A stretch of 22,803 bases of DNA from a virus. Of the stretch, positions 4,160 to 21,383 are shown one piece after another. A program made the translations under genes and the position numbers. The stretch's first letter is position 1. Every line of letters starts with the position of its first letter. The stretch lies in the IMG/VR virus record IMGVR_UViG_3300030430_005381, positions 1 through 22,803 of that record; one strand, written 5' to 3'. The notes below the pieces were generated by a model. The model saw only the letters and a list, made by a program, of their open reading frames with translations, was not told the origin of the DNA and did not search any database.

Positions 4160-7100
4160 TTATTCTTTAATTATTCTTTTATTAAATACTTTTCCTTCAG
4201 TGCTAATAGATAAGAAATATATTCCATTTTCAACATTGGTTAAATCTAATATTTCACTAGTAGAATCCTTAATTATAGTTCTTCCAGTTATATCATGAAC
4301 TGAATATGATATATTTACATTAGAAGCTATATTGATAATATCCTTAGTTGGGTTAGGATAAACTATAACCTTACTCATATTTCTATTAAACATTCCATTA
4401 ATATCAAATCCTTCGGGAAATCCATTTTCACAATAGTTATAAGTTTGTTGGCAAATTGCATCCCATTCATTTTCACAGCAATAACTGTCAACATCTATTA
4501 CCCAAGCATAACATTGATTATTAAGCCAATAAGGATTACCTGGTCCATCTATACACCCTGCATCATATAAACAAGAATCAGGATCTGAAACATTAGCTTC
4601 AGGATTATAGTTATAAGATTCCGGATCGGTACATCCAACTATGGCAGTAATACAAGTACCATTATCTACATTTGCTTCCGGATTGTAATTTACTGCTGTA
4701 GGATCCATACAACCATAAATTTTTTCTACACAGCTAAAATCTTCTACATTAGCTTCAGGATTATAATTTAAGGCTTCGGGATCAGTACAACCAGTTACAA
4801 TAGGAATACAACTACCATCATCAACTGTAGCTAAGGGATTATAATTGAATGAATCTGGATCCATACAACCATAAAGAATAGGTATACAAGAACCGTCATC
4901 CACATTTGCCTCTGGGTTAAAATTCAAAGAAGTATTATCTGTACACCCTTCTACTACAGGAACACAACTACCATCATCTACTGTAGCTAGAGGGTTATAA
5001 TTAAAAGAATTTGAATCCATACAGCCGTATAAAATAGGGATACATGAACCATCATCTACATTAGCCTCAGGGTTATAGTTTAAAGAAGTATTATCAGTAC
5101 ATCCTTCTACTACTGCTACACAACTTCCATCATCCACGGTAGCTAAAGGATTATAATTAAAAGAATCAGGATCCATACAACCATAAAGTATTGGAATACA
5201 ACTACCATCATCTGTATTAGCTTCAGGATTATAATTTAATGAAGTATTATCTGTACAACCGTAAACTATAGGAATACAACTTCCATCATCTGTATTAGCT
5301 AATTCATTATAATTAAATGAAGTGGGATCTGTACATCCTGCTAAAATTGGAATACAGGAACCATCTTCAGTATTGGCTTCAGGATTATAGTTTAGGGCAG
5401 TATTATCAGTACATCCATATACTATAGGTACACAAGTACCATTATCAGTATTGGCCGCAGGATTATAATTAAATGAAGTAGGATCAGTACAACCATATAC
5501 TATATCTACACAAGTTCCATTATCAGTATTGGCTTCTGGATTATAGTTGTAAGATTCAGGATTAGTACATCCGTAAACTATAGCAATACAGCTACCATCA
5601 TCTACATTAGCTTCAGGGTCAAAATTATATGAAGATGGATCAGTACATCCCTCCACTATTGGAATACAACTACCGTCATCTGTATTAGCATTGGGGTCAT
5701 AATTTATGGAATTTTCATCCATACACCCTTCTACTACAGGCACACACGAACCATCATCTACATTAGCATTTTCGTTATAATTAAATGAAGTTGGATCCAT
5801 GCATCCTTCTACTATAGCTATACAATCACCAGGAGTGTTAGCTTCAGGATCATAATTAAATGAATCTGGATCCATACAACCAACTACAACTGGAATACAT
5901 GAACCATCATCTACATTAGCATCTGGATTATAGTTAAATGCTAAATCATTCATACATCCTTCTATTATTTCAATACACGAACCATCGTCCGTATTTACGT
6001 CTACTAAAGGATCTCCTGTGGGTTCTACATAATTTAAGGAAGTAGGATCTGTACATCCTTCTATAATAGGGATACAGACGTCTCCAAAAGTAGGAGTATC
6101 AGCTTCTAAAATATAGGGATATGGTATAGCTTCCCAATAACCTACATCAATTATTTTATCTCCAGTAGGACCAGTTAAAGTATAACCTATTTGTGCTACT
6201 GAATTTTGTGAATTAGGAGTAACAAATAAAAAAGCTCTAATAGGTTGATATATATTTAAGGGTACTTCAAAAGTAAGACTAGTACCATCATTAGGTCCCA
6301 TTTTATATTGGGGAGAAATCCAATTACCCTGTATTAAACCTAACCAAGTTCCTTGCCACCCATCAGCTGCTCCATCAAAAATTTCTAAGGTATAAGTACC
6401 AGTCATAATTTCACTGGTATTAGCTTCGGGATCATAATTGAATGAATCAGGATCAGTACAACCTACTACTCTAGGTTCCCCACAACTACCATCATCTACT
6501 ACAGCATCAGGATTATAATTTACTGAAAAAGGATTCATACAACCCACAATAGTTTCTTCTTCCTCGCATACTATGGGAGTAAATTGGGCAGAAGTAGTTA
6601 AATAACCAAAATCTCCATCTGGATGCTCATTAAGTAAATCATAAAGAGTGGATCTATCACATCCAAATATTTGTAAATTACCACCTCCTGAAAGACCATC
6701 TCCATAGGAATCTTCTAATACTAAATCTAAAGTACTATTTTCACTAACACATACAAAAGTAGTAATAGGAACTCCTGCAGGTGAACCTTCATAGGAACCT
6801 TCATTGGCTGATGCATACGTAATATCATTTCCATTTTCATCTCCATATAATATCCAACTAGTTTCTTCAGGCCAGTTATCAGGAGTGTAAACTACTGCTA
6901 TTAAAGTTTGTCCTTCTCCACATTGAGGTACTGTAAGACAGGATCCATCATCTATAGTAGCCCATGGATTATAATTAGCAGAAGTAGGGTCAGTACATCC
7001 TAATATGGCTCCACAGGGTAAACAAGATTCCCAACAAACTGGAGGAAGAGTTATGGATTGGTTACCAGCAACTATTAAGGTTCTATTAATAAACCCATTT

Positions 7101-7801
7101 TCATCTAAAGTAAAACAAGCTGAGTTAGCTGTAACACCTACCGGAAGTTCTTGTTCTGCCCAATTATCTAACATAAATTTATATAAATGCGGGCCCTGAG
7201 GTAACTCTATAGTAGTTTTATAAACACCATTACCATTATTATCAAACATAGGATGCTGATCCGTCCAACCATTGAATGTACCAGCAACATAAGGATTACC
7301 AAATTCTTCTGGATAATCCGACATATCTACTCTAAATTCTACAGGTATAAGACAACTACCGTCATCTAAAGTAGCTTCAGGATTATAATTAGAAGAATCC
7401 GGATTAGTACAGCCTAATATCGGAGGTGGACAGGGTAGAAGATTTATAACTACTTCGTGAGTTTCAAAATCAAATCTAGCATCTAAATCTAAAATTTCTC
7501 CTTCACAGGAGTTACTTATTACAACCCCAGAATAAGCATTATTTTGATCTATCCAACCATCACCAAAACTATCCAATAAAGTTAAAGTTACTGAAGGAGT
7601 ATTAGTAAAAACTATTGTTTGGAATAATTCACTAGGTAGTGTAGGGGTATGATTTACTAAAGTATCATTTTGGGATGTTACTATTACAACTGATTCATCA
7701 GGTCCATAACTATCAAATTGCACTTCTAAACTAAACCAGGAGGCTTGGGAAAAACCAAAAGTAGAGGTTATTAATAATAACCAAAACGCTAATTTCTTCA
7801 T
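4160..7801 (-). CDS. Giant secreted Cys-repeat protein with CBM48-like module and type IX secretion sorting domain
   Basis: This 1213-residue protein starts with a Sec signal peptide at 1-19 (MKKLAFW...FGFSQ). Three 'DSFGDGW'-type modules lie near residues 70-95, 357-380 and 470-500. A CBM48/E-set-like module sits at about 153-245 (VAGTFNGW, NNGNGVYKTTIELPQG, LYKFMLDNW). About 23 copies of a 26-residue repeat of the form GC(T/M)DPxSxNYNPEANxDDGSC occur: four scattered before residue 465 and 19 in tandem at 581-1077. A Cys-rich segment at about 1083-1127 holds DSYCCENEWDAICQQ. The last 73 residues (1141-1213) form a type A T9SS sorting domain (VYPNPTKDIINI, ITGRTI, LENGIYFLSI-like, KRIIKE end). 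The protein should cross both membranes through the host T9SS and be released or surface-anchored. It is a candidate adhesin or surface coat, and is not typical of phage virions. Confidence 0.9.
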   Translation of the reverse strand: MKKLAFWLLLITSTFGFSQASWFSLEVQFDSYGPDESVVIVTSQNDTLVNHTPTLPSELFQTIVFTNTPSVTLTLLDSFGDGWIDQNNAYSGVVISNSCEGEILDLDARFDFETHEVVINLLPCPPPILGCTNPDSSNYNPEATLDDGSCLIPVEFRVDMSDYPEEFGNPYVAGTFNGWTDQHPMFDNNGNGVYKTTIELPQGPHLYKFMLDNWAEQELPVGVTANSACFTLDENGFINRTLIVAGNQSITLPPVCWESCLPCGAILGCTDPTSANYNPWATIDDGSCLTVPQCGEGQTLIAVVYTPDNWPEETSWILYGDENGNDITYASANEGSYEGSPAGVPITTFVCVSENSTLDLVLEDSYGDGLSGGGNLQIFGCDRSTLYDLLNEHPDGDFGYLTTSAQFTPIVCEEEETIVGCMNPFSVNYNPDAVVDDGSCGEPRVVGCTDPDSFNYDPEANTSEIMTGTYTLEIFDGAADGWQGTWLGLIQGNWISPQYKMGPNDGTSLTFEVPLNIYQPIRAFLFVTPNSQNSVAQIGYTLTGPTGDKIIDVGYWEAIPYPYILEADTPTFGDVCIPIIEGCTDPTSLNYVEPTGDPLVDVNTDDGSCIEIIEGCMNDLAFNYNPDANVDDGSCIPVVVGCMDPDSFNYDPEANTPGDCIAIVEGCMDPTSFNYNENANVDDGSCVPVVEGCMDENSINYDPNANTDDGSCIPIVEGCTDPSSYNFDPEANVDDGSCIAIVYGCTNPESYNYNPEANTDNGTCVDIVYGCTDPTSFNYNPAANTDNGTCVPIVYGCTDNTALNYNPEANTEDGSCIPILAGCTDPTSFNYNELANTDDGSCIPIVYGCTDNTSLNYNPEANTDDGSCIPILYGCMDPDSFNYNPLATVDDGSCVAVVEGCTDNTSLNYNPEANVDDGSCIPILYGCMDSNSFNYNPLATVDDGSCVPVVEGCTDNTSLNFNPEANVDDGSCIPILYGCMDPDSFNYNPLATVDDGSCIPIVTGCTDPEALNYNPEANVEDFSCVEKIYGCMDPTAVNYNPEANVDNGTCITAIVGCTDPESYNYNPEANVSDPDSCLYDAGCIDGPGNPYWLNNQCYAWVIDVDSYCCENEWDAICQQTYNYCENGFPEGFDINGMFNRNMSKVIVYPNPTKDIINIASNVNISYSVHDITGRTIIKDSTSEILDLTNVENGIYFLSISTEGKVFNKRIIKE
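4571..6061 (-). repeat. Tandem array of 19 coding repeats, about 78 bp each
   Basis: These bases encode residues 581-1077 of the secreted protein: 19 units of mostly 26 residues, each with a GC...SC cysteine pair. The first unit carries a 7-residue insertion and the third lacks one residue. Units 11-16 (about 4796-5263) form a higher-order 156-bp dimer repeated three times (GCTDNTSLN.. followed by GCMDxxSFN..). Although the proteins are nearly identical, the DNA units differ at many third positions. The array is a protein-coding repeat and not CRISPR. Confidence 0.95.
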
Positions 7802-10920: not shown

Positions 10921-12291
10921 TTATTTTTCTAATTCGAAAAACTTTTTACGTAGTAACTGTTTATCAAAAGTATCTACATCAGTATCAAATTTATTAGATT
11001 TAAATGAGGGAGATAATGATTCATTATCTTCACTATCATTATAATCATAAACTTCAAAATGACCAGTTGCAGTATCTGCTTTAACAGAAAATGTAAGGCC
11101 ATCTATCCCATATCTATTTTTCATAATATGAAATCTACCAGTGTTATTTACTTTATCTTCTTTCTTTCTTGAAAGAGACATTGCAAAATCAGATATCATC
11201 ATTTTATCATATGAACCTGCTGCTTTATCTCCTTCTATTATTTTATCTTGTGCACCAGCTCGGTTAACTTGAGAGACAGACCAGATAGGAATATTTAATT
11301 GTCTTGCTAAACCTTTTGTGCTAGTATAAATATCATCAATTTCGTCCTTACGCTCTCTATTCTTACGTCTTGATGAAAGTAAGTCTACATAATCAATAAT
11401 AACTAAATCAGGTTTTACACCCATTCCTGAACATTTGCTAATATGGGACTCAATAGTTGAAACCGTTGCCCTACCTGTAGGAAATTCCTTAATAATTAGT
11501 TGACCTGGTAATTGTGGTATAATATCCTCTATTTTTTCTCTAAAGGAATCTACTTTATTAACAGGTATTTTAGTAAAAAAGGCATCATATCTTTTACCTA
11601 CATAATCTTCACCCAATTCCAAAGTATAATGTAATACATTATATCCTAATCTTACAGCATGACCCCCTAAAGCTACAAGAGACCATGATTTACCACCTCC
11701 AGGATTACCAAAAATAAGACCAAAATCTCCGTTTCCAAGTCCACCTTGTAATAACCCATTAATACGTTCCCAAGGTGTAGGTAAAATAGTTCTTGAATTT
11801 TCTCTATAACGTTCTTCAATATCCTTAATATATTCATGGCCTAAATTTTTATCTTGCCCCGCTTTTAAGGCATTATCTATTAAATATCTTATTCCATCAA
11901 AATCTCCACCTTTAAGTAAATCAACAGAAGACATTAATGCTCTTTTTAATTGTTGATTTCTACAAAAATTAGTAAATTCTTCTTGCACATATTGTAAATC
12001 ATCATCTGAAGTTACATATGCAGCTTTAAGTTGTTCTTTTATAGATATTTGTAATACTTCATTATCTACCTTTTGTAGTTCTACTTTTAATATATCTAAA
12101 GAAGGAGTAGTATGGTATTTGTCATAATATTTTAAAATTTCTTTAATAGCCCATTTTTGAGCAGGGTTTTCAAAATACTCATCAGATATAATATCATGAA
12201 TATTAGTTAAAAATTCTTTATGTGTCAATAAAGAAGATAAAACCTTTATCTGAAATTCATGTCCGTATTGGTTTATACTATTAAGTGTCAA
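10921..12291 (-). CDS. DnaB/gp41-like replicative DNA helicase
   Basis: This 456-residue protein is a hexameric 5'-3' helicase that unwinds the phage fork. An N-terminal DnaB-like helical domain (about 8-110, YGHEFQIKVLSSLLTHKEFL) precedes a RecA-type core: Walker A GNPGGGKS at 195-202, catalytic Glu225 (YTLELG), Walker B LVIIDYVDLL with Asp300, the SQVNR sensor at 340-344, and KNRYG at 391-395. The start must be the TTG at 12291, because an in-frame TAA lies two codons upstream and the next Met is residue 120, beyond the conserved N-terminal domain. This TTG overlaps the TGA of the upstream nuclease gene (ATTGACA), so translation is probably by re-initiation. A separate primase is not seen in this window. 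Confidence 0.95.
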   Translation of the reverse strand: MTLNSINQYGHEFQIKVLSSLLTHKEFLTNIHDIISDEYFENPAQKWAIKEILKYYDKYHTTPSLDILKVELQKVDNEVLQISIKEQLKAAYVTSDDDLQYVQEEFTNFCRNQQLKRALMSSVDLLKGGDFDGIRYLIDNALKAGQDKNLGHEYIKDIEERYRENSRTILPTPWERINGLLQGGLGNGDFGLIFGNPGGGKSWSLVALGGHAVRLGYNVLHYTLELGEDYVGKRYDAFFTKIPVNKVDSFREKIEDIIPQLPGQLIIKEFPTGRATVSTIESHISKCSGMGVKPDLVIIDYVDLLSSRRKNRERKDEIDDIYTSTKGLARQLNIPIWSVSQVNRAGAQDKIIEGDKAAGSYDKMMISDFAMSLSRKKEDKVNNTGRFHIMKNRYGIDGLTFSVKADTATGHFEVYDYNDSEDNESLSPSFKSNKFDTDVDTFDKQLLRKKFFELEK

Positions 12292-13328
12292 TCCTTATAA
12301 CCTTTAAATTGTAAAAATATATCTTTTAACCACGTATCTAAGTTCCTAATCATTCCCCCTAGTTTATCCTCATTATAAAATTGTATAAACATTTCGGGAT
12401 TAAAATCAGGAAAATTATCTAATATAAGATTATCTATATGTTCTATACCCCTATTATCTATCATTGGAATACTTAAATCCATAACTTTATAACTAGTTTC
12501 AATTCTATTTTTGTTCTGAATTATTCTAGAATATACAACATGATCTTTGAATTTCCTAGCTGATATCTCAAAAATATCTTCTAATGTAAGTTCTTGTGTT
12601 TTTAATTCAGGAAATTTTTTAAATATTCCTTTTACACCTAAACCTTTAACTCCGGGAATATTATCTGAATTATCACCTAGTAAAGTTTTATACAGAATAA
12701 AATTTTGAGGCAGTAAACCTAATTTTTCCTCTACTACCTTAGGAGTATAATATTCCTTCTCCATAGGTCTATATAAAATAATTTTATCAGTTACTAACTG
12801 GAGGAAATCCTTATCACTGGAGACTATAAAACATGTAGAATTATATTTTTTTACTAATTTTTTAGATAACACGGCTATAATGTCATCAGCCTCCACTTTA
12901 TCTAATATGGTAGTTTTTACAGGTAATAATTTTAAATACTGTATTATACGCACTATTTGATCAATTTTTGAGTCATGTTCCTCCTCTATTGAATCAAATG
13001 CTTCCCAATTAGTAATTCGTTGTAAATTTCTAGTTCCTTTGTATTCGGAGAGCAGATTCTTGCGGTTGGTAGTTGAACCTGCTCCATCGAATACTACATA
13101 AACAGAAGTTGGGTTAGTTTGTCTAATCATAGCACCTAAAGAACGGAAGAACCCACCTAACCCACCTATGTGAACTCCATCAGGATTAACCATATTCATC
13201 ATAGCAAAGTTTCTAAAAAATAGATTTAAACCATCTAGTATTAAAACTCTATCATGTTTTTTAGGTATAGTCTCCTCCTGATCCTCTTGGACACTGTCCA
13301 ATAGACTAAACAATTCTTTATGTTTCAT
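12288..13328 (-). CDS. FEN-family 5'-3' exonuclease / RNase H (T4 Rnh-like)
   Basis: This 346-residue protein is a flap-type nuclease that would remove RNA primers and 5' flaps from Okazaki fragments. Acidic metal-binding residues occur in FEN order: Asp32 (ILDGLNLFFRN), Asp81 (VVFDGAG), Glu146/Asp148/Asp149 (KVEADD), Asp172/Asp174 (SSDKDF) and Asp219/Asp222 (GDNSDN). They are followed by the helix-hairpin DNA-binding motif IPGVKGLGVKG (224-234). An N-terminal 25-residue acidic extension precedes the core. As the polymerase in this window has no 5' nuclease domain, this separate protein probably supplies that function. It is 8 bases after uvsX and overlaps the helicase start by 4 bases. Confidence 0.92.
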   Translation of the reverse strand: MKHKELFSLLDSVQEDQEETIPKKHDRVLILDGLNLFFRNFAMMNMVNPDGVHIGGLGGFFRSLGAMIRQTNPTSVYVVFDGAGSTTNRKNLLSEYKGTRNLQRITNWEAFDSIEEEHDSKIDQIVRIIQYLKLLPVKTTILDKVEADDIIAVLSKKLVKKYNSTCFIVSSDKDFLQLVTDKIILYRPMEKEYYTPKVVEEKLGLLPQNFILYKTLLGDNSDNIPGVKGLGVKGIFKKFPELKTQELTLEDIFEISARKFKDHVVYSRIIQNKNRIETSYKVMDLSIPMIDNRGIEHIDNLILDNFPDFNPEMFIQFYNEDKLGGMIRNLDTWLKDIFLQFKGYKD

Positions 13329-13335
13329 GTTTTAA

Positions 13336-14409
13336 TTATAAATCCTGTACGTCATAAAGTACAGGTGTTGTATCTTCTTGATCTTCAACAATTTTGAATT
13401 GTCCTCCTCCTAAAATTTTAGACCATTCATCGGCATGCTCTTTTTTATAAGCATTTTTATCTTTATCCGTATCTTGTATAAAACCATGATTTGTCATAAC
13501 AATTTTACCTCTTGATTGCATACCATTAACATGATTTTTATCAATTTGTAAATTTGTTCTTTTACCCCATTCTACTTGCATACCACCTTTAATTGCCTTA
13601 ATCTTAGATGTTCCAGCATTTGATATATTTCCAAACGTAACTACAAATGTTGCATCATACCACATTGCCATCCCACCTTTATTCATCATTTTAGGTTGAC
13701 CCATAGGTGATTCCGCTTTTGCTGTCCAAACTTTATTAACAGCAATTAATGTATTAGTATAAGGAGATGATTCCTTACGAGACATTACAATACTTTGGTT
13801 AACTGTATTACCAAATTGTGTTGACATTGCACCAGCATTCCATTCATTATTGTTTTTTAGTTTTTCAACTGACATTTGACATGGAATAGATCCAATTGAG
13901 TCCCAGAAAAAGGCTAAATCATATGGCAAATTACCTTTTTTCTGTTCATTTTGTAAATCCATAATAAAAGCTGCTACATCTTCTATAGTATGTAATGTTT
14001 CTCTATCAACATAGATAAAATTACCCTCATAGTCTACTACTTCACCCTCATCATCTTTAATTAAATTAACTTGTAATCCCATTTGGGCTGCATGTTCCCA
14101 ATTCCATTTCATTTCTGTAATGATAAAAACGGGAAGTACTCCCATATTTTGAGCTGAAACAGCCGCCTCTAGTAAAGCCGTGGTTTTACCTGTATCAGAA
14201 TGACCCCTTAGTAATGAAATATGTCCCATTGGTATACCTGGTACTCCTGCTACTTTTTGAAAAGCAGGAGATAAAGGTATCCATTGTTGATCTTTAAATT
14301 TGACATTTTTATTTAAACCTTTAGAGGATTTAAATTTATTAAGATCAAATTTGCTCTTTATTTCCGCAGATACTGCTTCGGAAAGAGACTTTGATGCTTT
14401 TCTTGCCAT
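13336..14409 (-). CDS. uvsX: UvsX/RecA-like recombinase
   Basis: This 357-residue protein is an ATP-dependent strand-exchange protein used for recombination-dependent replication and repair in T4-like phages. Motifs: Walker A GHSDTGKT at 69-76, catalytic-type Glu99 in IITEMKWNWEH, Walker B LAFFWDSIGS with Asp170, and the L2-like region after MSRKESSPYTNTLIAVNKVW. Its length is similar to T4 UvsX (about 390). The start ATG 14409 is 2 bases after the gp32-like gene stop, consistent with co-expression of the two filament-forming partners. The mediator UvsY and the helicase UvsW are not seen in this window. The family assignment is secure. Confidence 0.95.
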   Translation of the reverse strand: MARKASKSLSEAVSAEIKSKFDLNKFKSSKGLNKNVKFKDQQWIPLSPAFQKVAGVPGIPMGHISLLRGHSDTGKTTALLEAAVSAQNMGVLPVFIITEMKWNWEHAAQMGLQVNLIKDDEGEVVDYEGNFIYVDRETLHTIEDVAAFIMDLQNEQKKGNLPYDLAFFWDSIGSIPCQMSVEKLKNNNEWNAGAMSTQFGNTVNQSIVMSRKESSPYTNTLIAVNKVWTAKAESPMGQPKMMNKGGMAMWYDATFVVTFGNISNAGTSKIKAIKGGMQVEWGKRTNLQIDKNHVNGMQSRGKIVMTNHGFIQDTDKDKNAYKKEHADEWSKILGGGQFKIVEDQEDTTPVLYDVQDL

Positions 14410-14411
14410 AT

Positions 14412-15239
14412 TTAAAAGGGTAAATCATCTACTTTTTTTTCTTTACTTTCAAATAAAGAATCAAATTCATCAACTTTACTTTGTTTAGCTTTAGAAGTAT
14501 CTAAACTAAAATTATTAGATGGTTTAGATTCTACTATAGGTGCAGGCACGTCATCTTCGGACTCATCCTCAGGTGATAACCATTTTTCTAAAGCAGATTT
14601 CATTTCATCAAATGAATATCTTTTGAATAATCCATCTTTGGGATTTGGTTGTTCATTACACCATTTTTCTACCAATGAAGCATCTTCACTAAGTGGAGAA
14701 GTTTTTAAACGAACCCTTACTGATGATTTATTATAAGGAGTGCCAGTTGATTCTGGTCCCACTGTTTCTACTGTAAGATCTCTACCATTTACAATATCAG
14801 TATAATCTCCAATTTCTTCATCTACGGCTAATGCAAGAAGTTCTTCATATACTGTTTTACCAAATTGCCATAGTCTAACACCTTTATCTTCTTCACCACG
14901 TACTATAACGGGGACAAAAACTCGGTTTTTAGCATCTAATTTTTTAGCAAGAACATAATTTTCTTTATTATATTCTCCCTCACGTAATTTACTTGCAAAT
15001 AAAGCAATGGGATCTTTATCACCAAAATTAGCAGGTGAAATCATTACCTTGTTAGTAATTCCATAATAGAACTTAAGTTCCGTAAATGGGTTTGATGAAT
15101 CATACGTTGAAGGTACAATTCTAATTTGTTGTTTACCTACTGTAGGTCTCCAAAAAATTGTTGTGTAATCTGTCTTTTGACCACCCTGTGGTTTTGATTG
15201 GAGGGTATCCAATTTCTGTTTAAGCATTGTTAAATCCAT
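14412..15239 (-). CDS. 32: gp32-like single-stranded DNA-binding protein with SSB-type C-terminal tip
   Basis: This 275-residue protein is the cooperative ssDNA-binding protein of the phage replisome. An N-terminal basic segment (1-25, MDLTMLKQKLDTLQSK) matches the cooperativity domain. The OB-fold core at about 26-205 has the recognisable FWRPTVGKQQIRIVPS and FYYGITNKVMISPANFG stretches. An acidic Ser/Asp/Glu-rich linker runs to the end. The protein has only one Cys, so the zinc site of T4 gp32 (His64, Cys77, Cys87, Cys90) is absent. The last residues are VDDLPF, which is the tip by which bacterial SSB proteins recruit repair and replication partners. The gene is preceded by a 56-base leader with a hairpin and followed directly by uvsX. 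Confidence 0.93.
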   Translation of the reverse strand: MDLTMLKQKLDTLQSKPQGGQKTDYTTIFWRPTVGKQQIRIVPSTYDSSNPFTELKFYYGITNKVMISPANFGDKDPIALFASKLREGEYNKENYVLAKKLDAKNRVFVPVIVRGEEDKGVRLWQFGKTVYEELLALAVDEEIGDYTDIVNGRDLTVETVGPESTGTPYNKSSVRVRLKTSPLSEDASLVEKWCNEQPNPKDGLFKRYSFDEMKSALEKWLSPEDESEDDVPAPIVESKPSNNFSLDTSKAKQSKVDEFDSLFESKEKKVDDLPF

Positions 15240-15277: not shown

Positions 15278-15299
15278 ATAGTTAGGGATGCCAAACTAT
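15278..15299 (-). promoter_or_regulatory. Hairpin in the leader of the gp32-like gene, possible translational operator
   Basis: On the minus strand ATAGTT (15299-15294) pairs with AACTAT (15283-15278). Two more G-C pairs follow across a T-T mismatch, with the 4-base loop CATC. The hairpin overlaps the TAG stop of the upstream gene and ends 38 bases before the gp32 ATG. Unstructured, AT-rich sequence lies between. In T4, gp32 represses its own translation by binding from a structured element at a similar distance. I found only three bases of possible loop-to-downstream pairing, so a pseudoknot is not shown. Confidence 0.35.
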
Positions 15300-15763
15300 A
15301 ATTCAATAATTTTGTAAATTTTTGTATTCAATTGGTTTAATTCATTATGTTGCGTAAGTAAAATGCAATTTCTATAATGTTGCCAATCAACTCTATAACG
15401 TGTATCTACTACTCCACCATTAAGCTTTTTAATTAATTCATTTAAAGCATTAATAGTATATAAAGTATTAGATTCTTTTTTACGATGTACTAGAATAGTA
15501 TTATCAGGGATTGAATTTAAATTAGTTTGATCAACATTATAAGTAACTACATACTCATCTTTTCCAACTATCTCAAGTACAAAAAGTTTATTATATATAA
15601 TATCGTACTTACTTTTAATATCCTCAATTAGTAATTCAAGACCTTCAAGATCAGTAAAAGTACAAAATAATTTATTGTTCAAATCACCTAATATTTTGAT
15701 ATCTGTTACAATATCATATTTCGTATTATACATATTAGGGTTACTCTGTAAGACTGTAGTCAT
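15296..15763 (-). CDS. Protein of unknown function overlapping the DNA polymerase gene
   Basis: This 155-residue soluble alpha/beta protein has no signal peptide, no membrane helix and no Cys-rich motif. Visible segments are a region rich in charged helices (LEGLELLIEDIKSKYDIIY), a stretch NTILVHRKKESNTLYTINA at about 89-107, and a C-terminal part DTRYRVDWQHYRNCILLT. I do not recognise the family. Its ATG (15763) lies inside the end of the polymerase gene, with a 23-base overlap in another frame, and it is 56 bases upstream of gp32. Co-translation with the polymerase suggests a replication-related role such as an accessory or regulatory subunit. This is inference from position only. Confidence 0.75.
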   Translation of the reverse strand: MTTVLQSNPNMYNTKYDIVTDIKILGDLNNKLFCTFTDLEGLELLIEDIKSKYDIIYNKLFVLEIVGKDEYVVTYNVDQTNLNSIPDNTILVHRKKESNTLYTINALNELIKKLNGGVVDTRYRVDWQHYRNCILLTQHNELNQLNTKIYKIIEL

Positions 15764-17012
15764 ATCCTTCTGTTTCTTTTATATTTAATTTATAATTTTT
15801 AAATACTTCTCTAATTTTTTCTAAAATTTCACTATCATTATCATCTACATCTAATAAAAACGAATCATAAGTGTATAATACTAGTTGTGTCTTGTGTTTT
15901 CTTAATATACGAAGTATATCCCATAATATCAACACATTTACAGATGTTTCTAAATTTTGTAAAACGTAATTAAATAACTTTTGCGGATTCATATTATCTA
16001 AATTTTCTTTTTTATATCTATATCCAGAAATTTTACATTCTACAAATCCATCGTTTTGAAACTTACTCCAAAGCTCTCCTACGTATTTTTCTATTTTTTT
16101 AAAGAATTCCAGGTGTTTATAATTATCAAAAACGCCCCCATAGAGCTGTTTGAAGGTAAGTTCTTTCGATTTTTTATAATCCACTCCATATAAGGACGCA
16201 AAATGAGAGTGAATATCAATACCGGAAAAATCATAACCAATAAGCCGAGCAGACAAACTAGGGTGGTAAGCGCTAATATCAATTTCCAAAAACCTATTAT
16301 TACGTGGTATAAAACTTTTTCTACAACCGTTTTCTTTATTAAGTGCTGCATAATTTACATTATTAAATTTATTTGAGGGTCTTGTGGTTATTGTTTTTAA
16401 GTTGAACTGAGTGTTGATGTATTCACCATTAACGGGGTGGAAATACTTACTGAAGGTTTCATTATGTATTCGTATTCCACTTCTCTCGATGGCGTTGAAT
16501 ACCACTGACACTCTACTGTTAAAGAAGTCATCATATTTAGTTTTTTCATTAGTAATATTATCTTTTAAATCATTAAAAATTTGCTCACACAATTCATAGT
16601 GTTTAACAATGGGTATAATTAAGTTTATCTCTGGGTTATCCTTATATTGTCTATAAAATAAATCATGTGTAGGTGTTGTAGGACGTATATATGGATTAGG
16701 AGGTGTGTTTATGTCATAAAGAGTTTGAATTGGAAAATAATGTAATATTTCTTTTTTATCTCTACAATATAACTTATCAAATTTATCTATTAATTTGCAT
16801 ATACGCGTATTTAACACATTTAAAGACTCACTATGCTCACTACATATCATAAAGCCTTTACTCGCTTTAAGTGGTCTAATATACACTAAACTAACGGGAT
16901 TAATAGCAGGATGAATATTATCACTATAAGGGATAACTTCTATATAAGCTTCTTTATAACTACTATTTAATAAAACATTTAACTGTTCCTCGTTCTCTAC
17001 AAGCCAGTACAT
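15741..17012 (-). CDS. Compact, divergent family A DNA polymerase with degenerate exonuclease region
   Basis: This 423-residue protein carries the family A polymerase core at about 165-415: ERSGIRI (176-182), TITTRPSNKFNNVNY (207-221, equivalent to the TGRLSS..NLQN region), motif A EIDISAYHP with Asp245 and Arg256, DIHSHFASLYG, motif B KELTFKQLYGG with Lys283, Phe287 and Tyr291, the NYVLQNLET helix (348-356), and motif C YTYDSFLLD with Asp383. Departures are notable. Motif C is YDS instead of HDE, and motif A is DISAYHP instead of DYSQIE. Residues 1-160 resemble an exonuclease domain, but the usual DxE is IEV (24-26), so proofreading is probably lost. T4 itself uses a family B enzyme. The polymerase sits upstream of gp32, uvsX, FEN and helicase genes. 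Confidence 0.85.
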   Translation of the reverse strand: MYWLVENEEQLNVLLNSSYKEAYIEVIPYSDNIHPAINPVSLVYIRPLKASKGFMICSEHSESLNVLNTRICKLIDKFDKLYCRDKKEILHYFPIQTLYDINTPPNPYIRPTTPTHDLFYRQYKDNPEINLIIPIVKHYELCEQIFNDLKDNITNEKTKYDDFFNSRVSVVFNAIERSGIRIHNETFSKYFHPVNGEYINTQFNLKTITTRPSNKFNNVNYAALNKENGCRKSFIPRNNRFLEIDISAYHPSLSARLIGYDFSGIDIHSHFASLYGVDYKKSKELTFKQLYGGVFDNYKHLEFFKKIEKYVGELWSKFQNDGFVECKISGYRYKKENLDNMNPQKLFNYVLQNLETSVNVLILWDILRILRKHKTQLVLYTYDSFLLDVDDNDSEILEKIREVFKNYKLNIKETEGYDYSLTE

Positions 17013-17044: not shown

Positions 17045-17884
17045 TTAGTAACCTCCACCATATCCTATACTTCCTCTATTACTAGAAGTTTGGTTTTCTA
17101 TTCTATCTACTATATTTTGTTGATTTGATCCACTTATAGGTATTAAAAATTCATGAGAGTAAGGTACATGTTGTGCCCCTACCATAGGACCTTTATTAGG
17201 ATGTATATGATATAATCCAATATAAGGCCTTCCTGTTGATTCAACTACAAATTCAGTGCCATCCGTTTTTAGGTTATCTCCAATGGCATATCTAAAGTAT
17301 TGGTCATAATTTTCTTTAAAATATGATTTGAAACCTCTTAAATTAAAATTTCTAGAAGCCCTTTCTATGGTTTTTTTATTAACATTAATAACATTATTTC
17401 TATCTCCTGATATTAACCATGGAATACTAAAAGGGAAATATAATTGATAATTTACTAGGGGGTCCTGTTCTAAAAATCTTTTATAAGTTTCATTAGATAC
17501 CTCTATATAATTAATATCATTAACTTTAGAAGTAAAATATCTTTGAAATTCTTGAATTTTATAATCTTCTTCAGTAGGAAAATTAATAGTTTGACTAGGA
17601 TTAATTGGTGGAGTACCTTGAAATTGGTTTCCAGAAGCTCTTGAGTAGCCTAAATCTAATAAATAATAAGAATTTTCTTCTTGTGAAGTATTATTATTTT
17701 CTACACTTATTCTTTCTAACTGTTGATTTGGTTTATCATTAGGGTTTCTACCCGTAAAAATTTTACCATCGGATGTAGTATAATAATAACCTATATAATT
17801 TTCTAAGGTGTTAGAAAAAAGATAAACTAGTTCCCCCCCATTAGTATATAAATCTGTTTGTATTTGTGATTTAGGATAATACAT
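17045..17884 (-). CDS. Putative tail/structural protein of unknown function with His-rich HxHP motif
   Basis: This is a 279-residue protein from ATG 17884, overlapping the hub gene by 14 bases. An alternative TTG at 17893 adds only three residues. It has no signal peptide or membrane segment and is Asn/Tyr/Gln-rich, as many phage structural proteins are. Near its C-terminus is GLYHIHPNKGPMVGAQHVPYSHEFL, given here only in part: key residues are the HxHP pair, GPMVGAQH and a final His. Together these could bind a metal ion. The tail ends in Gly/Tyr-rich GSIGYGGGY. Its position directly after the baseplate hub suggests a baseplate or tail-tip component. I do not recognise a named family. Confidence 0.7.
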   Translation of the reverse strand: MYYPKSQIQTDLYTNGGELVYLFSNTLENYIGYYYTTSDGKIFTGRNPNDKPNQQLERISVENNNTSQEENSYYLLDLGYSRASGNQFQGTPPINPSQTINFPTEEDYKIQEFQRYFTSKVNDINYIEVSNETYKRFLEQDPLVNYQLYFPFSIPWLISGDRNNVINVNKKTIERASRNFNLRGFKSYFKENYDQYFRYAIGDNLKTDGTEFVVESTGRPYIGLYHIHPNKGPMVGAQHVPYSHEFLIPISGSNQQNIVDRIENQTSSNRGSIGYGGGY

Positions 17885-20800
17885 ATACTTCAAAATCTGC
17901 TTTTGTTAACACAGGATAGGTACCTAATTCTAAACGGGTTCCCTCTAATGTTTTAGGTCTAACATTACTTACTGTTCTTCCAGATACTCTAACTCTTCTT
18001 ACTGCAGGGTTTTGTTGTGCCAAAGTGGCTGCAAATTCATCAGATTTTTCACTTCCCAGTACATAATCTGCAGGTTGGGTTGCAGCATATGGATAAAAAG
18101 TTAACATATATATATCTATAGTACTTAAAACCGCCTTACTAGGATTTGCACCTAATGATAAATAATACTCCTGTACTACATCTAACTGTTCTACTCCTGT
18201 CATATTTTGTACCTCAGTTAAATTATATACCTTACCCCTAATAGTTTTAGTTGTACCCCTACTCTTATCTGGGCATAATTGTATAAGTCCCACACAACCT
18301 ATTGGATTTCTAGCACTTTCATTAATTTTAGACTCCTTATACATAGTCTTAACCAAGGCAACTTCGGTAGTTCCAAGATTAGCTGCTACTAATTTAACTT
18401 TATCCTTAAAACCTTCAGATCTTATTTCTGCTTTATCGTATGCAGTTTGTTGATTAGTTGAAAGTTCAGTAAGTGGAGTAATAGTTGCAGTAACTGGATT
18501 GGCTTCTATAGTAGTTGCTGCTTTATTTTTATAGGCTTTTTGTAGACTTGGGGCCTTTTTAGAAACGGGAACAGAAAATGTTCCTAAGCTAGTTTCCCAA
18601 ACATTTCTACTTACTTTATGGTTAATTTTTCGTAAAAGAAACTTTAATGCTTTTGGGTATGAACTAGGTAAGAATTCAGTATTTACATCTAACATATCAA
18701 ATATTTTAAATCCACTCATACCATCTATTTCTACACCTAATTCTAAAGGGATAAATCCATTACTAGAAACTGAATCATTATCAATAGCTTCCTGTTTATC
18801 CCTATCACTTAAATATAATTTAAATGCATTTTTGCCTTGATTTCTAAAAGAAACATTATCAAACTCCCAAAACATTGAACTTCCAATAGAAGTATTAAGC
18901 TCCGTTAGTTGTTCTTTAAATAATTTTTCTTTCTTATTCACTACAACCTTTTCATAAGAAGAAAACCCGGACTTACCACCTAGGGCTTTTGTTACAAAAA
19001 ATTTATAATTTTTTTCAGCTTCTTTAACATTTCTTAATCTGGTTGTTCCATCATCTCCAGTTTCGTATTTTTGCTTATCTGCTAAAACTGCTTGTTTATA
19101 TTGATTTAATCCTACACTTAATAAATCCTCATTTTTAGAATCGCTTTCACGGTTTCTCGAAAAAGGATTAACTTCTACTGTTGATGAAAATATTCCTGTA
19201 ACTAATACACCACCATATTTAAAACTATAACCTTTAGAAACAACACCCGATACTTCACGTAGAAACAAAGCATCTCCACTTTTGATAGCTGCAGATAAAG
19301 CATCTTTAAATTTTTGGTCATTAGCTTCTTCCTTTTCAGCTTCAGTTAACACTGTAGTTTTCATTAAATTATTAGAAACCCTATTTTTTAATCCTTTATT
19401 CCATCTAGAAAAAGGGGCAGCACTCTCTTCTTTTTCATTAATAGCAGCAGAACCGGCTGTAATTAAATTAACTAAATCTGGTGTTATTTTTGTCTGGAAA
19501 TCAAAAGATTTTACAAAATTTGAACTACCATTTGAGTTATATCCATAAAGTTCTATAGGAGTAGTAGGTGAGTTGTTTAGAAGATTATCATATCCCTTAA
19601 TATTATTTTGATCAATTATAATAACTTTTTTATCCTTTTTCAAAACAACTTCTAGTTTAGTACATTGACCAGTAGAATCATTTATTCCATCACATAAGTT
19701 TTGAAGAAAAGTATATAAACTAACATTATCTTCTTTATCCTTAGCCGATTGAAAGGCTTGTTCAATAAAATTAAAATTTAAATAAATATTTAATAATTTA
19801 CCATAGACGACTCCATTTTCTTTATGAGCAAATTTTCTTAAGGGTTTATTAAACCTATCTACAGCATCATAATTAGAATTAAATTTTGTAGTTTCTCCTA
19901 CAGCATTTTTAAATTCTTCATCCAACATAATACTAAATACTGCTTTATTGGGTGCAAGTGGAATTAAATTAGTTTCATAATTACATAAAATATTATCTGT
20001 ATCTAAATCAAACTCTACTTCACCTTCAATTACATTATCACCATTTACTATGTCTACAATTACTCTATTTTGTATAACTTCTAAGAACTTTCCAAACCTA
20101 ATGAAATAGCGTAAGTTTTTAGGTATTTTTTTTCTGATTGCTTTAAAAGTTGATAAAGCAAAAAAACCACTTTCTTTATTAGGGTCATGTCTAGTCTCTG
20201 TAATTAAATTAGGAGCAAATAAAAGTTCTTTATATTTAAACTCAGAATTGAAAAAATTAATTATAGTAGTGCCTAAAAACTGAGATATAACATCTGAACC
20301 TAGATTTGTTAGAAGGGTATTATTAGAACTATCTATTTGTTCCTGGGTTATAGCATTCTCACCTCCTTCTTGACCATCATTAAGACCTAATTTTAAATAA
20401 AGCTTACGTTGTTGCTCTAAAAAACTATTTTTATCTATATTGAGAGCTGGGATATTTGCATTGATAGATTCTATGACTGAACCTACGGTTAATAAATTAA
20501 CTGTAATATCATAGGTATTATCCACATTTAATTTCCAATTAAAATTTACTATTTTACCTAAAAAACCGTCGTAGTTACCTAAATATTCCTCTCTTAATGT
20601 GTTGATAGATGAAATAAAATCATTTTGTGTTCTAGCCTTACCATCAAACCATAATCTTTCTATTAAAGTTTGTCCAGTATCTTCTATTGTTACAGAGGAT
20701 GGGGTAGTGGCATTAGCTCCTTCTTTAACATTTGAAACATATTTATCCCATCCCCATTCTAACATTACAAAATAGCCTAATCTTAAATACAATAGCTCAA

Positions 20801-21383
20801 TTACATTAAACTGAAATTTATTATAGGCTTTTATATTTACAGTTGCTTTTCTAATAGAACCTCTATTAATGCATTCTACAGATATATCAGTTATCCCCGC
20901 TACCGGTTGTAATCCTCTTTCAATACTACTTCCAACCCCACCATACATTTTATTAATAGATTTTTGAAAAGGAGAAAGTATAGGTGGATTTTGATTAGGG
21001 TCTGCGGGTGAGATATCTGTAACTACTCCACTTCTATCAGTATAAGTACCATCACCGTTATACTTTCTTAAAGTATTAAAAAGAACAAAATTTTTAGCTA
21101 GTCCATTACCTTTAAAGGAAGTAATATCACTTTCTGATAAATAATTATTATTAGAAGCACCTAAATTTTGCATTAGTTTTTCTTCTCCTGCAGAGCCGGA
21201 AAAATTTACCCCGGAAGCCATTTTTATCCAGGCATTTCTATTATTTAAATAATTAGATACTTCTGGAGTTCTTTGTACTTTATCTTCGCCTGGTAAGTAA
21301 CCAGCTCCATAAAGTTTTTGCCTATTATCTATTTGTTTATCAAATACAGCATCAATGGATTTCCCTAATAAATTTCCTGTCAT
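17871..21383 (-). CDS. Baseplate-hub-like tail protein with C-terminal lytic transglycosylase domain
   Basis: This 1170-residue protein is the largest of the tail genes here. The N-terminal third contains strands such as ITDISVECINRGSIRKATVNI followed by LGYFVMLEWGWDKYV, resembling gp27/hub-type baseplate domains. The middle is long and beta-rich with Asn/Lys-rich linkers. Residues about 997-1110 form an SLT-type lysozyme-like domain: catalytic Glu1017 in YKESKIN, then GCVGLIQLCPDKS at about 1029-1041, and further helices with YYLSLGANP and MLTFYPYA. It would locally cut peptidoglycan when the tail tube penetrates the cell, the role T4 gp5 lysozyme plays. The start is ATG 21383, 2 bases after the gp53-like gene. 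The SLT domain is well supported. The hub identity of the N-terminal part is moderate. Confidence 0.8.
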   Translation of the reverse strand: MTGNLLGKSIDAVFDKQIDNRQKLYGAGYLPGEDKVQRTPEVSNYLNNRNAWIKMASGVNFSGSAGEEKLMQNLGASNNNYLSESDITSFKGNGLAKNFVLFNTLRKYNGDGTYTDRSGVVTDISPADPNQNPPILSPFQKSINKMYGGVGSSIERGLQPVAGITDISVECINRGSIRKATVNIKAYNKFQFNVIELLYLRLGYFVMLEWGWDKYVSNVKEGANATTPSSVTIEDTGQTLIERLWFDGKARTQNDFISSINTLREEYLGNYDGFLGKIVNFNWKLNVDNTYDITVNLLTVGSVIESINANIPALNIDKNSFLEQQRKLYLKLGLNDGQEGGENAITQEQIDSSNNTLLTNLGSDVISQFLGTTIINFFNSEFKYKELLFAPNLITETRHDPNKESGFFALSTFKAIRKKIPKNLRYFIRFGKFLEVIQNRVIVDIVNGDNVIEGEVEFDLDTDNILCNYETNLIPLAPNKAVFSIMLDEEFKNAVGETTKFNSNYDAVDRFNKPLRKFAHKENGVVYGKLLNIYLNFNFIEQAFQSAKDKEDNVSLYTFLQNLCDGINDSTGQCTKLEVVLKKDKKVIIIDQNNIKGYDNLLNNSPTTPIELYGYNSNGSSNFVKSFDFQTKITPDLVNLITAGSAAINEKEESAAPFSRWNKGLKNRVSNNLMKTTVLTEAEKEEANDQKFKDALSAAIKSGDALFLREVSGVVSKGYSFKYGGVLVTGIFSSTVEVNPFSRNRESDSKNEDLLSVGLNQYKQAVLADKQKYETGDDGTTRLRNVKEAEKNYKFFVTKALGGKSGFSSYEKVVVNKKEKLFKEQLTELNTSIGSSMFWEFDNVSFRNQGKNAFKLYLSDRDKQEAIDNDSVSSNGFIPLELGVEIDGMSGFKIFDMLDVNTEFLPSSYPKALKFLLRKINHKVSRNVWETSLGTFSVPVSKKAPSLQKAYKNKAATTIEANPVTATITPLTELSTNQQTAYDKAEIRSEGFKDKVKLVAANLGTTEVALVKTMYKESKINESARNPIGCVGLIQLCPDKSRGTTKTIRGKVYNLTEVQNMTGVEQLDVVQEYYLSLGANPSKAVLSTIDIYMLTFYPYAATQPADYVLGSEKSDEFAATLAQQNPAVRRVRVSGRTVSNVRPKTLEGTRLELGTYPVLTKADFEVYVLS

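Follow-up and report, generated by a model that had tools for sequence, protein, structure and literature searches.

Does a polymerase of only 423 residues copy the genome of the phage that encodes it, or does it assist another enzyme? The question is raised by a gene in the window analysed here, a complete IMG/VR record of 22.8 kb that is a piece of a larger phage genome. In a preliminary description of this DNA, a family A core was proposed to have replaced the family B polymerase (PolB) normally used by T4-like phages, with the alternative that the true replicase may be encoded elsewhere. The gene and its neighbours, which are the first features needed here, are as follows.

15741..17012, minus strand: short family A polymerase-like protein (mini-polymerase) of 423 aa with an ATG start, the feature under study (ORF list, Pfam, PHROG, AlphaFold, Foldseek and profile-profile comparison)
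15296..15763, minus strand: partner gene of 155 aa with a conserved core of ~130 aa, its start overlapping the 3' end of the polymerase gene by 23 bp
14412..15239, minus strand: gp32-like single-stranded DNA-binding protein (PF08804, E=1e-10; phrog_1192)
13336..14409, minus strand: UvsX/RecA-like recombinase (phrog_97)
12288..13328, minus strand: separate 5'-3' exonuclease, like the 5' nuclease domain of DNA polymerase I (PF02739, E=5e-35)
10921..12291, minus strand: DnaB-like (gp41-like) replicative helicase (phrog_19, E=5e-83)

In the order of transcription, the tail and baseplate block is followed by the mini-polymerase, the 155-aa ORF, the gp32-like protein, the UvsX-like recombinase, the 5'-3' exonuclease, the DnaB-type helicase and both ribonucleotide reductase subunits. 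The 5' nuclease gene matches the DNA polymerase I families NF004397 and TIGR00593 at profile residues 2-247, so the two halves of a Pol I are present in this cluster, each with a gene of its own. Within the baseplate region, a protein of 1170 aa (17871-21383, minus strand) carries a C-terminal transglycosylase-like (SLT) domain (PF01464, E=0.002; phrog_3874). Elsewhere in the window, a 1213-aa protein (4160-7801, minus strand) has a signal-peptide-like start, many G-C-T/M-D/N-P-x-S/A-x-N-Y-N-P...DDGSC repeats and, at its C-terminus, a type IX secretion sorting domain (PF18962, E=2e-12; TIGR04183, E=2e-11), and this phage product is apparently addressed to the type IX secretion system of the host. 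Proteins of 966 and 994 aa occupy the same place in two relatives, G007 and G023.

The family A homology of the 423-residue protein is weak by Pfam, yet real. It scores 16 bits against PF00476, for which the gathering cut-off is 34.3; several homologues from the clade of Flavobacterium phage immuto reach 34.3, some through summed stretches only. Because the window member falls below this cut-off, the gene is easily overlooked or mis-called a replicase. No relevant match was obtained for the short polymerase against PDB sequences by phmmer or profile search. PHROG 17 (DNA polymerase) matches the protein at E=2e-5, and when 59 homologues are set against Klenow, T7 gp5 and phage PolAs in a profile-profile comparison, residues 199-422 match with a probability of 96.3% (E=1.8e-9). 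The AlphaFold model built from the 59-homologue alignment (pLDDT 91.3, pTM 0.90) resembles Klenow-type enzymes in the PDB with Foldseek E-values of about 1e-15 to 1e-17 (lowest 5e-17), and all of the 50 best PDB matches are family A. As in Klenow and in bacterial and plastid Pol I, the fold extends over the whole chain (E~1e-15), with a query TM-score (TMq) of at most 0.75 for Pol I/Klenow. As modelled, the protein is a shrunken Klenow-like family A fold, and a family A core at exactly these coordinates on the minus strand is thus borne out by PHROG, profile-profile and Foldseek comparisons. The gene evolves with a dN/dS of ~0.21 (0.19 in the N-terminal part, 0.22 in the polymerase part). A broken or truncated PolA is ruled out by this ratio, by the steady length of ~400-450 aa and by the existence of hundreds of homologues.

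The mini-polymerase gene is found on more than 570 viral contigs. Its carriers are large T4-like viruses of aquatic bacteria, for the most part from three clades, namely the window's own, a sister clade with the isolated phage immuto and a third with Microcystis phage Mel-JY01, and the gene is kept in all three. A close counterpart from an isolated phage is immuto gp001 (NC_055915), a direct homologue with 38-39% identity, the same gene order and the same partner, which is annotated only as 'DNA polymerase family A'. When placed in a phylogeny with PolA families, as the preliminary description had proposed, the short polymerases form one separate clade with 100% ultrafast bootstrap support and a long stem, while the deeper nodes are weak. 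The full-length PolA of immuto, gp199, falls beside the T5-like enzyme (73% support), apart from the short ones, and a recent duplication of that PolA is therefore unsupported. A search of a bacterial genome collection returned only six matches, all in metagenome-assembled bins and mostly flavobacterial; the restriction of matches to phages and metagenome bins counters an origin as a cellular gene. No earlier account of the polymerase and its partner as a module was found in the open literature, subscription papers lying mostly outside the search, and term searches of two viral PolA surveys (PMC6302109, PMC9069017) and a jumbo-phage review (PMC7824862) turned up none either.

The active site combines strictly kept and consistently replaced residues. 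Equivalences are given in E. coli (Klenow) numbering and derive from profile comparison, the homologue alignment and reference PolAs.

16380..16382, minus strand: R211 = R668, within T-T/S-R-P-S-N
16257..16286, minus strand: motif A, EIDISAYHPS, with D245 = D705 (metal ligand) and H250 = E710 (steric gate changed to His)
16137..16178, minus strand: motif B, YKKSKELTFKQLYG, with Y279 = R754 (changed), K283 = K758, F287 = F762 and Y291 = Y766
15957..15959, minus strand: Q352 = Q849, within the conserved K-x2-N-Y-x2-Q-x2-E-T
15849..15875, minus strand: motif C, YTYDSFLLD, with Y382 = H881 (changed), D383 = D882 (metal ligand) and S384 = E883

The protein shares with Klenow the equivalents of D705, D882, K758, F762, Y766, R668, N845 (N348 in the window protein) and Q849. 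Among 215 distinct homologues, nearly all from the three clades and with identities down to 25%, R211, D245, H250, K283, F287, Y291, Q352 and D383 are invariant, and Y279 and Y382 each vary in only two. The position of R754 is Tyr in 95/96, 56/56 and 58/58 members of the three clades; motif B otherwise retains its K, F, Y and G and departs from the family A pattern at this arginine. A search with the partner gene independently yielded 40 more proteins, which share 28-41% identity with the window protein; all have D705, D882, K758, F762, Y766 and a His at 710, and the R754 position is Tyr in 35, Val in three and Thr in two.

The motif A sequence DISAYHP (residues 245-251) had been singled out for the change of its steric-gate Glu to His, and this holds in every mini-polymerase homologue, compared with a Glu in 11 of 12 reference PolAs. 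Of the motif C change from HDE to YDS (residues 382-384), only half is unusual. H881 is present in 12/12 reference PolAs, and the R754 motif is detected in 10/12 by motif search. At the E883 position, by contrast, four of the 12 have Ser and three closely related ones have Gln, and an HDS motif C is found in the T5-like, HTVC033P, EFDG1 and Shamu PolAs. As Ser is common at this position in phage PolAs, including the T5-like and HTVC033P enzymes that share it with the mini-polymerase, YDS is unusual for its Tyr and not for its Ser. Mini-polymerases therefore differ from Klenow by E710 to His, R754 to Tyr, H881 to Tyr and E883 to Ser or Ala, of which the first three are, in sequence comparison, the unusual changes. 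Phage PolA replicases such as T7 gp5 and those of T5 and pelagiphage HTVC033P have the family A palm and catalytic aspartates in common with the mini-polymerases but keep E710, R754, H881 and nearly always the exonuclease acids, which the mini-polymerases do not. In other family A enzymes, R754 binds the incoming triphosphate. With this residue replaced and E710 and H881 also lost, the enzyme could be a poor catalyst or none at all; the loss of R754 in particular warns that the reaction may be slow or need the partner.

In addition to its length of 423 aa, compared with 605 aa for Klenow, the mini-polymerase differs from Klenow in lacking exonuclease acids and in having a constant small partner gene. 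The DxE pair reported as missing is indeed absent from the N-terminal 160 residues, and the full set D355/E357/D424/D501 is kept in 0 of 18 short homologues aligned, in which single acids occur at scattered positions. Together with the fixed active-site replacements, this agrees with the earlier suggestion of an unusual, possibly non-proofreading lineage. The best reading of the N-terminal region is as follows.

16533..17012, minus strand: residues 1-160, degenerate 3'-5' exonuclease fold without catalytic acids (AlphaFold/Foldseek full-length Klenow match, TMq 0.74-0.75)

A sequence-only profile comparison of residues 1-160 with the exonuclease domain gave no significant match. Since residues 161-423 make up only 62% of the chain and TMq reaches 0.75, we infer that in the model the N-terminal 160 residues superpose on the Klenow exonuclease domain as well.

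The relatives of the window phage encode a separate replicase. In the window clade, a family B polymerase is found in 10 of 33 long relatives and a full-length PolA in none; relatives that are 72-86% identical over the mini-polymerase carry a split PolB, which consists of two ORFs in those read closely. In the 119-kb relative G007, the ORFs at 52527-54236 and 55924-56880 match phrog_262 at 93-566 and 565-842, with DIE, SLYPS and LNSLYGA intact in the first half and VDTDS in the second. The split falls between motif B and motif C (L065:12527-14236 and L065:15924-16880, which correspond to G007, and G023:85170-87769); the halves abut in G023, four small ORFs lie between them in G007, and one PolB stretch of a further relative, G001, contains an in-frame TGA. 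G007 also encodes both clamp-loader subunits (phrog_168 and phrog_225), and the T4-like (gp43) replisome set of the relatives comprises PolB, both clamp-loader subunits, gp32, UvsX and a DnaB-type helicase. In the immuto clade, a full-length PolA is found in 6 of 10 contigs. The replicase of immuto itself is such a full-length PolA, not a PolB: gp199 has 777 aa and intact exonuclease acids, PolB is absent, and gp44/gp62 were undetected in this genome. In the Mel clade, PolB occurs in 7 of 12 records and in Mel-JY01, which has an ordinary family B polymerase, while LR756508 combines its mini-polymerase with PolB and a Pol III-like gene. Wherever a second polymerase is missing, the record is a fragment.

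The same locus, between FolE and GroES/GroEL, holds PolB in the window clade and full-length PolA in the immuto clade, and is thus a site of replicase exchange in situ. When immuto (L056:32397-42237) is compared with G007 (50.7-61.0 kb), the PolB and gp44/gp62 of G007 stand opposite the full-length PolA of immuto. In those relatives where it was measured, the distance from the short polymerase downstream to the replicase is ~20-26 kb, and the window extends only ~16 kb on that side; the PolB observations accordingly concern relatives of the window phage, the 22.8-kb fragment ending before that locus. The proposal that a family A core has taken over from the family B polymerase is contradicted by the split PolB of close relatives and the separate PolA of the sister clade, whereas the alternative of a replicase encoded elsewhere agrees with the PolB or full-length PolA in relatives of all three clades. 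As evidence against its reading, the preliminary description had named polymerase and clamp genes elsewhere together with a loss of activity in this protein. PolB and clamp-loader genes were found in relatives; the sliding clamp gp45 was not identified there (a 241-aa ORF beside PolB is suspected, unconfirmed), and the metal-binding aspartates of the mini-polymerase are invariant.

The partner gene accompanies the polymerase in every locus long enough to show it. Its family members have 130-155 aa, and homologues in immuto, Mel-JY01 and LR756508 are 42-54% identical. In a search of 50,697 phage records, partner homologues occurred in the same six records as the strong short-polymerase matches. 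The partner lies beside a full-length short polymerase in 238 of 254 loci; the remaining 16 are cut short by a contig end no more than 603 bp away. In the reverse search from the partner, a short polymerase was found in 48 of 80 loci; the other 32 are uninformative because their upstream DNA is at most 2,525 bp, below the spacing of several members in the group. The partner core, 'NTILVHRKKESNTLYTINALN..I..LN.G..D', is better conserved between clades than the polymerase (42-54% versus 25-39%). The structural model of the partner has a pLDDT of 80, and searches of Pfam, NCBIfam, the PDB by sequence profile and the PDB by Foldseek returned nothing significant for it.

The reading favoured here, with a probability of about 0.55, is that the protein is the mini-polymerase of a two-gene phage module, an accessory, non-proofreading enzyme for Pol I-like gap-filling or lesion-tolerant synthesis and not the replicase. 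As the main copying enzyme is present in addition, the mini-polymerase probably helps with repair or gap-filling. We infer its catalysis and its binding to the partner from sequence, and the gene neighbourhood suggests the function. The mini-polymerase would work with the partner, gp32, UvsX and the 5' nuclease. Together with its partner, it would make short DNA patches where gp32 coats a gap or a recombination intermediate. Primers or a damaged strand would be cleared by the Pol I-type 5' nuclease, leaving the mini-polymerase to fill or extend. With one gene product removing and the other filling, the two genes together are proposed to act as a Pol I that the phage encodes in two pieces. Without proofreading and with an altered active site, the mini-polymerase may also tolerate lesions or mismatches. 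T4 offers a precedent, since either gp43 or host Pol I fills the gap that RNase H leaves, and this nuclease is stimulated by gp32 (PMC3012046). Among jumbo phages, group 2.2 is described as having PolB and a minimal split Pol III alpha (PMC7824862). On that account, a T4-like PolB replicase with a second, reduced polymerase is common to both systems, but the second enzyme is family C there and a reduced family A here.

The main rival shifts the emphasis from gap-filling to lesion bypass, making the protein chiefly a translesion or mismatch-extension polymerase in UvsX-dependent, recombination-dependent replication and not a lagging-strand gap-filler. The missing exonuclease acids, the adjoining gp32 and UvsX genes and the replacement of the steric gate, the triphosphate-binding Arg and the motif C His all speak for it, but F762 and Y766 are retained and the neighbouring Pol I-type 5' nuclease suits gap repair as well, and this emphasis is rather improbable. 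A bolder view is similarly improbable: a phage-only family A subfamily with a rebuilt active site that would work only in complex with its partner, with a novel substrate choice or reaction, and that has been kept while the replicase swaps between families B and A. The same replacements, those of R754, E710, H881 and E883, and the shrinkage of the entire protein to 423 aa would also suit a catalytically dead or nearly dead fold acting with the partner as a DNA-binding scaffold or loading factor. This is rather doubtful, as decay would free the aspartates, yet the metal-binding Asp pair and the equivalents of K758, F762, Y766, R668 and Q849 are invariant in 215 sequences, the 40 independently found proteins also keep both Asp, K758, F762 and Y766, and some ordinary phage PolAs likewise have Ser at position 883.

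A site altered for another substrate, either ribonucleotides (as a maker of primers or RNA patches) or the phage's own modified nucleotides, is very improbable. The change of the Glu steric gate to His in every member would fit it, as would the genes for 7-deazaguanine DNA in relatives: QueC, QueD, QueE, FolE and a DpdA-like gene occur at 46-51 kb in G007, 88-96 kb in G023 and 18-37 kb in L056, and 7-deazaguanine DNA modification is predicted for the relatives of the window phage. However, a DnaG primase is present in immuto and a 158-kb relative, and loss of R754 is not known as a feature of family A RNA polymerases. DpdA modifies DNA after synthesis, so no modified dNTP is needed. The least probable reading is a minimal family A replicase that took the place of gp43. 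Although the gene lies within a replication cluster and the 22.8-kb window contains no second polymerase, close relatives have the split PolB, one of them with both clamp-loader subunits; immuto has its full-length PolA at the PolB position with gp44/gp62 undetected; and the replicase gene of relatives lies 20-26 kb off, past the window end. A role as sole or main replicase is thus not supported by these sequences.

More than 570 contigs carry the gene, yet a member that scores below the Pfam cut-off, as the window's does, is easily missed or mis-called a replicase. The fixed active-site replacements offer a naturally occurring test of how family A polymerases select nucleotides. Finally, a second, dedicated polymerase and its partner can persist in T4-like phages while the replicase swaps between PolB with a clamp loader and PolA, and since the second polymerase is kept through this exchange, the division of labour would be testable in the isolated phage immuto.
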